In this document: positions 62,065 to 64,000 of the stretch, piece after piece
Position numbering within the stretch: the first letter of the stretch is position 1
Layout of the letters: the number at the start of each line of letters is the position of its first letter
Assembly (NCBI GenBank): GCA_027313705.1
Contig: DAHVDE010000040.1
Coordinates: 1-64,000, forward strand
DNA length: 64,000 bases
Direction: 5' to 3'
Source of the DNA: Actinomycetota bacterium
GTDB lineage: Bacteria > Actinomycetota > Actinomycetes > Streptosporangiales > Streptosporangiaceae
The notes under the pieces: generated by a model
The model's database searches: none
What the model was told of the DNA's origin: nothing
The model's input: the letters and a program-made list of their open reading frames with translations, nothing else
Translations under genes and position numbers: made by a program

Positions 62065-63360
62065 TCAGGGCGCCAGGCGGTGCAGATCGCGCGGGAACGC
62101 CGTCACCTGGCGCAGGTTGGCCGCTCCGGTCAGGCGTGCCGTCCACCGCTCAAGTCCGATCGCGAAACCGCCGTGCGGCGGCATGCCGTGACTGAATACC
62201 TGAAGATAGCTGGCGTAGGGTGCCTGGTCCGCGCCTCGGGCGGCCAGCGCCGCGAGGTAGTCAGCGTGGTCGTGCAGCCGCTGGCCGCCGGTCACCAGCT
62301 CAAGGCCGCGGAAAAGCAGGTCGAAGCTGCGAGTGTAACCTGGCCTCGCCGGATCCTGGTGCGTGTAGAAAGGACGTTTTGCCGTCGGGAACCCTGGCAC
62401 GAACAAGAACTCAGAGCCGTGCTCGCGCTCGGCCCACTCGCACAGCCAGCGCTCGTCGGCGGGGGACAAGTCGGGCTCGCCACGCGGGTCCCAGCCGGCC
62501 ATGCTCGCGATCAGTTCCTGGGCCTCGGCGAAGTCCAGGTAGGGAATCTCGTCAGGCACCTTAGGCAGCCTGACGCCGAGCAACTCGACCGAGGGAAGCG
62601 CGCGAGCGGTGACACCATCCACCATGCCAGCGATAGCCTCCCTGAGCATCGCCATGACGTCGAAGTGGTCGGTGATAAAGCCGAACTCGGCATCGAGGCT
62701 GGTGTACTGGGCCAGGTGCCTCGCCGTGTCGTGCGGTTCGGCGCGGAACACCGGTCCGACCTCGTAGACCCGCTCGAAAACGCCGACCATCGCCTGCTTG
62801 TAGAACTGCGGCGACTGGGCAAGGAAGGCAGGCTTGCCGAAGTAGTCGATCGCGAAGACGTTGGCGCCAGACTCGGTAGCCGACCCGACAATCTTCGGGG
62901 TGTGAATCTCGGTGAAATCCCTGCTCTCCATGACGGCACGAAACCCCGCCTCGCTGGCCGCCGCAATCCGGAGCCCGGCGCTAAGCAGCGGGTGGCGCAG
63001 CGTCGTGGGCGCATAGTCAAGCACCGTAGGCAGCGTGGCGGTCACCGTCGGCCGGTACAGGTCGAAGGGCGGTGGCTCGGCCGGTCCGCTGAGCATAGTG
63101 AGGACCGGTTCGGTCAGCTCGGCACCGCCCGGTGCCTGTGTGCTTGCCTTGACCAGGCCGCTGACCTTGACGACAGTTTCTTCAGGAACGTCGATCATGC
63201 CGCCGGGGAAGACGGCCTGAGCAAGGCCGCTCCGGTCCCTGACGATCGCGAAGCTGACCGACTTGAGCTCGCGCTTACGATGCAGCCAGCCGGAGATCGT
63301 GACTTCCCTGCCAACGTGCTCGCCGACCTCGCTGGCCAGGACTCGCTTGGTAACTGACAT
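62065..63360 (-). CDS. aspS: aspartyl-tRNA synthetase, archaeal type, possibly non-discriminating
   Basis: 431 residues, short, without the bacterial insertion domain. N-terminal OB fold (VTISGWLHRKRELKSVSFAIVRDRSG) and class II core: ESRDFTEIHTPKIVGSATESGANVF, motif 2 FRAEPHDTARHLAQYTSLDAEFGF and motif 3 GGFAIGLERWTARL. This archaeal-type enzyme in bacteria is often able to charge both tRNA-Asp and tRNA-Asn, the latter then amidated by GatCAB. ATG at 63360 follows AGGGAG; that site is sequestered in the T-box hairpin upstream. Confidence 0.93.
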   Translation of the reverse strand: MSVTKRVLASEVGEHVGREVTISGWLHRKRELKSVSFAIVRDRSGLAQAVFPGGMIDVPEETVVKVSGLVKASTQAPGGAELTEPVLTMLSGPAEPPPFDLYRPTVTATLPTVLDYAPTTLRHPLLSAGLRIAAASEAGFRAVMESRDFTEIHTPKIVGSATESGANVFAIDYFGKPAFLAQSPQFYKQAMVGVFERVYEVGPVFRAEPHDTARHLAQYTSLDAEFGFITDHFDVMAMLREAIAGMVDGVTARALPSVELLGVRLPKVPDEIPYLDFAEAQELIASMAGWDPRGEPDLSPADERWLCEWAEREHGSEFLFVPGFPTAKRPFYTHQDPARPGYTRSFDLLFRGLELVTGGQRLHDHADYLAALAARGADQAPYASYLQVFSHGMPPHGGFAIGLERWTARLTGAANLRQVTAFPRDLHRLAP

Positions 63361-63645
63361 TCGGGCACTCCCTGGTTCGTCGTGCCCCTTGGGAGTGCGG
63401 GCGAGAAGGGAACTCGCTGTGCCACCACACCTTCGCCGCGTTCCGGGGTTCGCCGTTCGCGCGGCCTCTGTGGCCCGATCACGGGGGCCGGCCGGCGGGT
63501 CATTGAGCCTCGCCGCTGGTAGCGGCGGCCGTTCCTCCCCGCACTCGGGAGTGTCTTCGCAGCCTGGTCGCGAGACCGCCTTCTCAGCTGCCGGCGGCTC
63601 TCTATGCCCGGTATGCCAGGAGCTACTCGTCTCCGTCAACGCGTT
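63361..63645 (-). promoter_or_regulatory. T-box leader of aspS, Asp (GAC) specifier, translational type
   Basis: Minus strand, 5' to 3'. Stem I begins with GGAG, then ACGAGTA (AGTA loop E side), opposite GAAGACA (63552-63558), in which GAC is the specifier, then CTCC. The distal AGAGAGCCG region follows the T-box pattern (63573-63606). T-box sequence TGGCACAGCGAG at 63413-63424. Antisequestrator: GCGAAGG (63430-63436) with CCTTCTCGC (63401-63409). Sequestrator: GCACTCCC (63391-63398) with GGGAGTGC (63365-63372), which masks the aspS ribosome binding site. Uncharged tRNA-Asp should open the site. Confidence 0.85.
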
Positions 63646-63712
63646 AGCAGTGAGCTTATCGCAGGCGACGGCCGAAACGCCGGGCCATGATCGGGCGGCA
63701 CCTTTACTGCGC

Positions 63713-63718
63713 TATGAT
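63713..63718 (+). promoter_or_regulatory. -10 box candidate for tRNA-Pro
   Basis: TATGAT 34 bases before the tRNA-Pro gene. No convincing -35 hexamer at the expected distance. Confidence 0.35.
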
Positions 63719-63752
63719 CTGTGGGTCCGATTGGCTAAGTCCGGTCGGGCAA

Positions 63753-63827
63753 CGGGACGTGGCCCAGCTTGGTTAAGGCGCTGGTCTGGGGGACCAGAGA
63801 GCCCGGGTTCAAATCCCGGCGTCCCGA
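63753..63827 (+). tRNA. tRNA-Pro (GGG)
   Basis: 75 bases with acceptor CGGGACG/CGTCCCG, anticodon stem CTGGT/ACCAG, loop CTGGGGG with anticodon GGG (codon CCC, also CCU), T arm with GGTTCAAAT and discriminator A. CCA is not encoded. Cloverleaf intact. Confidence 0.95.
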
Positions 63828-63899
63828 CGCGCCGCTTCCGCGTGCTTGCCGGCCTTCGGTCGGCTGCGCCGGGGGCCGGAGTGTTGATCCGGGGGGCGA

Positions 63900-63949
63900 C
63901 CCCCGGACCCCCGGACCCCCGGACCCCCGGAACCCCCGGAACCCCCGGA
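63900..63949. repeat. tandem CCCCCGGA repeat after tRNA-Pro
   Basis: Six consecutive units of CCCCCGGA (four of 8 bases, then two of 9 as ACCCCCGGA). From 63828 to the end of the window no gene is supported. Confidence 0.85.
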
Positions 63950-64000
63950 CCGCTGCGCGCTCGCTTGCGGTGGTGGCGCCCCTCCAGGCCACCCAGGCCC

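Follow-up and report, generated by a model that had tools for sequence, protein, structure and literature searches.

A leader located directly upstream of aspS2, which encodes a 431-aa archaeal-type aspartyl-tRNA synthetase (AspRS), in a 64,000-nucleotide stretch of actinobacterial DNA (the window) can be assigned with high confidence, from sequence comparisons, as a translational T-box riboswitch that is specific for tRNA-Asp and controls this second AspRS (AspRS2). The T-box preceding the accessory enzyme is real and conserved, and it is very probably Asp-specific and translational in its action. The parts of a T-box that the original prediction had placed on the minus strand of 63361-63645 were all readable in the sequence, and the predicted features are as follows.

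63394..63648, minus strand: whole T-box leader (RF00230 match, model positions 1-219)
63542..63643, minus strand: Stem I of the long type, with sequences like an AG bulge and distal loop, AGAGA ... CAGCUGAGAA (26 pairs, 15 of them with changes on both sides)
63624..63627, minus strand: AGTA, 5′ side of the specifier loop (read in the sequence; unchanged across the Stem I alignment A1)
63558-63556, minus strand: GAA before the specifier (read in the sequence)
63553..63555, minus strand: specifier GAC (Asp), which abuts GAA and is followed by A at 63552 and then by the helix strand CUCC
63431..63541, minus strand: predicted region of Stem II, IIA-B, and Stem III (placed by the RF00230 alignment), with an F-box-like CCGUGA and the purines AGAG...GAAG on both sides of Stem III
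63395..63430, minus strand: antisequestrator, consisting of helix A1, the 7-nt bulge UGGCACA, and helix A2 (all cells paired in 40 leaders)
63430-63425 with 63400-63395, minus strand: helix A1 (read in the sequence)
63424-63418, minus strand: T-box bulge TGGCACA, between A1 and A2
63421..63424, minus strand: UGGC of the T-box bulge, complement of the GCCA end (G73) of tRNA-Asp
63417-63413 with 63405-63401, minus strand: helix A2 (read in the sequence)
63406..63410, minus strand: CCCUU in the antisequestrator loop, potential partner of AAGGG 63390-63386
63391..63398, minus strand: anti-Shine-Dalgarno (anti-SD) strand GCACUCCC (read in the sequence; duplex energy compared with shuffles)
63386..63390, minus strand: AAGGG, 3′ neighbor of the anti-SD strand and potential partner of the antisequestrator loop
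63365..63372, minus strand: sequestered strand GGGAGUGC, containing the Shine-Dalgarno (SD) sequence (read in the sequence; fold energies)
62065..63360, minus strand: aspS2, archaeal-type AspRS, 431 aa (NF003483, PF00152, OB-fold, 1n9w)

The Rfam T-box model RF00230 aligned end to end at 63394-63648 of the minus strand with a score of 50.7 bits, a bias term of 18.0, and an E-value of 6.1e-10 (1 kb searched). When the whole source genome (5.31 Mb, 118 contigs, 98.87% complete) was searched, the leader was the sole match at E<=10, with an E-value of 7.6e-10. The proposed T-box was thus recovered over its full length at a score below the Rfam gathering threshold of 93, which is why the window yields no T-box when Rfam is run at its default settings. 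Among 150 genomes of the same family, RF00230 matched at E<=0.01 in 125 and reached a score of 93 in none, ileS leaders included, and the sub-threshold score of the window leader therefore means little. One relative from the Chloroflexi, which shares the Stem I containing GAAGAC, scored 94.4, over the Rfam cut-off. No RF00230 match at E<=0.01 was obtained for L164 and L217, two relatives in which Stem I is ultrashort. The best 30 family matches (L002-L031) comprised 29 leaders with an AUC specifier and a UGGU bulge and one aspS leader (L019); an IleRS-like frame, as judged by reading the translation, followed 27 of those 29.

The product of aspS2 scored 514.2 bits against the NCBIfam model NF003483 (cut-off, 353) and 139.8 against the bacterial AspRS model TIGR00459, far under its cut-off of 373.85, in agreement with the earlier description of the gene as an archaeal-type aspS. 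It contained a class IIb catalytic domain (PF00152) and an OB-fold and lacked the bacterial GAD insertion. Its best solved relative was 1n9w, aspartyl-tRNA synthetase 2, presumably the Thermus enzyme, which is named non-discriminating and archaeal-type; the original prediction had called AspRS2 possibly non-discriminating, and the score against the non-discriminating model TIGR00458 was 325.4 bits, under the cut-off of 368.4. Classification of AspRS2 as discriminating, based on two residues of archaeal enzymes, was dropped because the non-discriminating 1n9w has the same residues.

A search of the source genome for class IIb synthetases (PF00152, E<=1e-5) yielded three proteins, namely the aspS2 product, a 599-aa bacterial-type AspRS, and LysRS, and no AsnRS was found in this search. 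The bacterial-type AspRS contained an RRRDHGG stretch, which we take to be the one known from non-discriminating AspRS enzymes. Since GatB was present and AsnRS was not found, Asn-tRNA is presumably made via the GatCAB route, and, given the bacterial-type AspRS, aspS2 represents an additional AspRS gene under a separate Asp sensor. The same relationship was observed across the family: a bacterial-type AspRS was detected at E<=1e-100 in 142 of the 150 genomes and an archaeal-type one at E<=1e-60 in 46, which marks the archaeal-type enzyme as the extra. Thirty-seven of these 46 showed 56-76% identity, and nine showed 36-42%. The archaeal-type enzyme was the only AspRS found in three genomes (G105, G126, and G129). 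Two of them, G126 and G129, have aspS2 with a T-box and no detected bacterial-type AspRS, so a backup function may not apply everywhere. A bacterial AspRS was undetectable in eight of the 150 genomes, seven of which are <=93% complete; in G105, aspS2 may be the sole AspRS, or the assembly may have a gap. In two other genomes, G116 and G140, an archaeal-type aspS of 36-38% identity, which has no T-box, is separated by less than 2 kb from the gene of the bacterial-type enzyme.

In the proposed mechanism, uncharged tRNA-Asp would pair its GUC anticodon with the GAC specifier and its GCCA end with UGGC of the bulge. All 36 leaders of the Stem I alignment contained GAC, as did 40 of 40 family leaders examined by motif, and AAC never occurred in those 40. 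Both tRNA-Asp and tRNA-Asn of the source genome have G73, all three tRNA-Thr have U73, and tRNA-Ile has A73; the UGGC bulge complements G73 of tRNA-Asp and not U73 of tRNA-Thr. The variant bulge UGGU, which can only wobble with G73, was found in two of 40 family leaders and eight of 61 leaders from named genomes.

The original prediction had further supposed that one sensor links aspartate and asparagine charging. Sensing of tRNA-Asn besides tRNA-Asp is conceivable, since tRNA-Asn shares G73 and its anticodon differs solely at base 36, which might form a G-U pair with the specifier G; the non-discriminating designation of 1n9w, the closest solved enzyme, the failure to find AsnRS in the source genome, and a Caldilineaceae relative with an Asp/Asn-rich leader peptide between T-box and aspS point in the same direction. 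However, tRNA-Asn(GUU) would need this G-U pair at the first specifier base, and the specifier reads GAC in the window leader as well as in every one of the 40 family leaders. Moreover, the bacterial-type AspRS, with its RRRDHGG stretch, may already supply a non-discriminating route. The joint sensor thus found no support in these data, and we consider it unlikely.

The leader preceded 40 of the 46 archaeal-type aspS genes in the 150 family genomes, and all 40 contained GAAGAC and the T-box bulge (UGGC in 38, UGGU in two). It was not found at the other six of the 46 family loci (L039, L072, L075, L076, L077, and L079). Five of these (L072, L075, L076, L077, and L079) are archaeal-type AspRS genes with 36-38% identity; L039, which lies in G105, and L111 are close aspS2 relatives without a T-box. 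Loss of the bacterial-type AspRS as the cause of T-box loss, suggested by the absence of both from G105, was regarded as weak in view of the incomplete genomes. A second set consisted of the best 80 of 173 relatives from named genomes. Of its 62 actinobacterial and Chloroflexi loci (L111-L172), 61 had the bulge (53 UGGC and eight UGGU) and 56 had GAAGAC, and at L111 neither was found; in these counts, motif occurrences at L039 and L111 were taken as chance, and the motif used skips L147, though L147 has UGGC. The named loci include Nonomuraea, Streptosporangium, Sphaerisporangium, Amycolatopsis, Actinocrispum, Micromonospora, Actinocatenispora, Mangrovactinospora, Kineosporia, and Longispora. 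The other 18 of the best 80 (L173-L190, 42-47% identity, mostly Patescibacteria) had no bulge within 420 bases upstream (140 bases of upstream sequence for L190), except for L188, a locus in a Clostridia genome, where a T-box was present. The named and family sets overlap and are thus not independent.

When 394 genomes of the class were searched with a model of the antisequestrator domain, 25 genomes from eleven families gave a match, under strict filters by which weak matches may be lost. Eight of the 25 genomes belonged to the family of the window and 17 did not. Downstream of the 17 were genes for an archaeal-type AspRS in 14 (one an 88-aa partial match), a bacterial-type AspRS in two (L217, by family scan, and L218, by reading), and a SerRS in one. 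Such a leader had been expected to be uncommon; its presence at 40 of 46 archaeal-type aspS genes in the family and of its antisequestrator domain in 25 of 394 class genomes does not bear this out.

Covariation was analyzed in the helices of these relatives. The Stem I alignment (A1) comprised 36 of the 40 leaders, leaving out L040, L041, and L065, in which Stem I is enlarged, and L078, in which its start was not located. Across 26 pairs, 95.0% of the cells were paired, compared with 84.7% in shuffles; changes on both sides occurred in 15 of the 26 pairs, and the covariation score was 0.354, compared with 0.168 for shuffled alignments. None of 500 shuffles equaled any of five measures, and slid controls reached a maximum of 0.101. 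In the antisequestrator, 440 of 440 cells were paired in the 40 leaders, with double-sided changes in four of 11 pairs. For the 3′ domain, in which the antisequestrator is taken with the extra helix described below, paired cells, double-changed cells, and score exceeded those of all 500 shuffles and of the slid controls, whereas the numbers of double-changed pairs (90/500 shuffles) and pair types (77/500) were within the shuffle range; in a more diverse set, these values were 86/500 and 240/500, respectively. Since the leaders are related, shuffles can overstate covariation, and the slid controls preserve relatedness. Conservation of these helices and of the GAC codon in relatives, which the original prediction required, was thus borne out at the family loci.

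A second AspRS gene beside a complete housekeeping AspRS could carry a relic of a T-box that has lost its response to tRNA, leaving aspS2 constitutive or silent, and G105, a close relative, has aspS2 without a T-box. However, comparison with relatives shows conservation or covariation of the specifier, the bulge, and the alternating helices, and the aspS2 frame is intact with a family match spanning its length. These observations make a relic very unlikely.

As predicted, the expression platform appears to be translational. A perfect 8-bp helix can form between GCACTCCC at 63398-63391 and GGGAGTGC at 63372-63365, which has the SD sequence inside and ends 4 nt upstream of the ATG at 63360. Helix A1, in its 3′ strand, and the anti-SD strand both use GCAC at 63398-63395 of the minus strand, which makes the ON and OFF folds mutually exclusive. 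Binding of uncharged tRNA-Asp would stabilize the antisequestrator, which would deprive the anti-SD helix of GCAC, expose the SD sequence, and allow translation of AspRS2; with tRNA-Asp charged or missing, the anti-SD strand would bind the SD sequence and translation would be off. In the 3′ domain without tRNA, the calculated energy was -34.6 kcal/mol for the OFF fold and -30.2 kcal/mol for the ON fold, and the sequestrator fold was thus favored by 4.4 kcal/mol. When the complete leader was folded by itself, the structure of minimum energy did not show the T-box fold, which counts against the assignment.

Pairing between the anti-SD and SD strands of the window was stronger than in shuffled sequences (p about 0.01, 200 shuffles). 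In 82 distinct leaders, which remained after 28 unusable and 16 duplicate loci were removed from 126, the mean z value of this pairing was -1.7, and the pairing was significant singly (p<=0.05) in 37 and not in 45, a weak point of the assignment; L048, L049, L054, L055, L057, L058, L062, and L064 formed a group with weak pairing. With a narrower motif (47 leaders), the mean z value was -1.28, and 15 of 47 were at p<0.05.

Transcription attenuation, the mode of the better-known class of T-boxes (PMC7583486), is highly improbable here because no terminator-like site was found in 63200-63760 and the SD-sequestering helix of the window recurs in relatives. A T-run does follow the antiterminator in one Caldilineaceae relative, L167. 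At this locus (2540-2990 of the metagenome-assembled contig JACFMY010000015), an Asp-type T-box (GCGAC-A-CCCU, 55.2 bits) is followed by the T-run, a 19-codon open frame, MDDDNDDNNAFQLIESGVR, in which codons for Asp and Asn abound, and an inverted repeat beside the aspS SD sequence. This single case resembles a T-box with a leader-peptide attenuator downstream of it.

The antisequestrator loop can form an additional helix with the sequence that directly follows the anti-SD strand. This loop (CCCUU in the window) and its partner (AAGGG in the window) could form at least four contiguous pairs in 77 of 78 parsed leaders (of 80 distinct leaders; L159 and L167 were left out). The variants covaried, as CCCUU:AAGGG, CCCUG:CAGGG, CCCG:CGGG, and GCCC:GGGC. 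In the alignment A3, which consisted of 35 leaders chosen for diversity from the 80, double-sided changes occurred in three of five pairs, and 91.8% of the cells were paired. Matched loops and partners in 37 distinct combinations paired better than permuted ones, which were as good in 2/500 permutations by energy and 0/500 by length. In ileS control leaders, for which the search covered a longer segment, at least four contiguous pairs were found in nine of 29. Judged by the order of the strands and the lengths of the loops, the extra helix would be hard to combine with A1 and compatible with the SD helix as an H-type pseudoknot. The conserved helix suggests a pseudoknotted OFF state, in which CCCUU would pair with AAGGG while the SD helix is formed. 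In the literature covered on T-box expression platforms, no comparable pseudoknot platform was found.

The register of the specifier also deserves consideration because GAA abuts GAC in the aspS leaders, whereas one base lies between GAA and AUC in ileS leaders. Applied to the aspS leaders, the ileS spacing would give GAA-G-ACA/ACC/ACG, all Thr codons, and tRNA-Thr would be the ligand. When positions are counted from the 3′ helix, however, GAC-N-CUCC corresponds to AUC-A-CCCC of ileS, so that GAC occupies the position of AUC. A serS leader of the same build in genome G357, GAA-UCC-A-CUCC with a UGGC bulge, has UCC in the place of GAC, and the same shift there would give CCA, a Pro codon. In addition, U73 in all three tRNA-Thr does not fit the UGGC bulge, the would-be wobble base varies (A, C, and G in 12, 26, and two of 40 family leaders) while GAC is constant, and the downstream gene is aspS. 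The Thr specifier, considered on account of the missing spacer, was therefore rejected: anchoring from the 3′ side, the serS leader of G357, and the discriminator base 73 together fix the register at GAC, and tRNA-Thr can hardly be the ligand. The Asp specifier of the original prediction was thereby supported by comparison with ileS, serS, and tRNA base 73 as well as by the invariance of GAC. The varying base is A in the window; its frequent identity as C in the family leaders departs from solved T-boxes, in which a purine is conserved right after the specifier (PMC7583486), and is a weak point of the assignment. The SerRS gene of G357 (L209, 157-1756) is a second one with its own T-box, and a better-scoring serS lies elsewhere in that genome.

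In some relatives, Stem I was ultrashort, and its hairpin loop contained GAC, for example CCUGACACC in Kineosporia. An ungapped hairpin search placed a GAC loop in the top two hairpins of eight of 13 such leaders; the ultrashort Stem I of L208, L214, L221, L165, and L168 was read by eye. L217 and L218 (G269 and G431), which precede bacterial-type aspS genes, had an ultrashort Stem I with a GUGAC loop and the same antisequestrator domain. Short translational T-boxes with the specifier in a hairpin loop are known (PMC3896937).

The leader shares with the actinobacterial translational ileS T-boxes an AGUA/GAA loop, A1 and A2 with the bulge, an anti-SD strand in common with A1, and the lack of a terminator (PMC1262725, PMC7583486). 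It differs from them in having GAC instead of AUC, no spacer after GAA, UGGC instead of UGGU, and the covarying helix of the A2 loop with sequence 3′ of the anti-SD strand, and in controlling an extra synthetase. Structures of the Nocardia farcinica and Mycobacterium tuberculosis ileS T-boxes have been reviewed (PMC7583486). In Firmicutes, a T-box likewise precedes aspS, at one of three aspS copies in Clostridium acetobutylicum (PMC2494555), and the hisS-aspS operon has a histidine T-box (PMC7927825), in contrast to the Asp codon of the window. The aspS T-boxes described there have transcriptional platforms, whereas no terminator was found in the window. The proposed T-box of the Corynebacterium glutamicum his operon is also actinobacterial and other than ileS, but it is short and lacks Stems II and III (PMC3896937, PMC9413887), and its identity as a T-box has been doubted (PMC3896937).

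As for the enzyme, Thermus and Deinococcus likewise have an archaeal-type second AspRS (AspRS2) beside a bacterial-type one, together with GatCAB (PMC4206432). Their genomes have AsnRS, which was not found in the source genome, and the available text of that report mentions no T-box. The inhibitor-resistant IleRS2, SerRS2, and TrpRS2 resemble the aspS2 product as extra synthetases that are expressed on need beside a housekeeping one (PMC9437257); as described there, they differ from aspS2 with regard to T-box regulation, which we assign to aspS2.

In the accessible parts of the earlier surveys, ileS was the sole gene named for actinobacterial translational T-boxes (Seliverstov 2005, PMC1262725); Wels 2008 cited ileS and, among 19 actinobacterial genomes, counted 32 T-boxes distributed over 12, with Symbiobacterium accounting for 18 of the T-boxes. 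In general terms, various synthetases have been described as under T-box control in Actinobacteria and Firmicutes (PMC9413887). Because the TBDB class II model was run on actinobacterial reference genomes, as far as the source describes, the present leaders may be listed there. A literature search of titles and abstracts, in which subscription literature was thinly covered, found no report on aspS or serS T-boxes of this actinobacterial group. The present data would add specificities for Asp and Ser to the actinobacterial T-boxes, in eleven families and often at an additional copy of the synthetase gene. AUC, GAC, and UCC on closely similar scaffolds would constitute a natural set for the study of codon change in T-boxes, and the set also suits questions on the minimum size of Stem I and on a pseudoknot as sequestrator.

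AspRS2 is likely an emergency enzyme, produced only if the housekeeping bacterial-type AspRS leaves tRNA-Asp undercharged. As a tentative wider interpretation, which we regard as possible rather than probable, Actinomycetes may have a T-box family that guards accessory synthetases, AspRS2 widely and SerRS2 in at least one genome, as inducible backups against inhibition, with a pseudoknot-locked SD sequence as a new expression platform. A backup role would imply that aspS2 is induced when the housekeeping AspRS is inhibited, with consequences for the use of AspRS as a target of antibiotics and for the self-protection of producers of AspRS inhibitors.

On the other side of the leader, a tRNA-Pro(GGG) gene was located at 63753-63828 of the plus strand of the window, divergent from the T-box, and it also adjoins aspS2 at L038, a locus of the same genus. 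Short tandem repeats of the type TCCGGGGGT (minus strand) were observed at 63898-63950, past the 3′ end of the tRNA-Pro gene.
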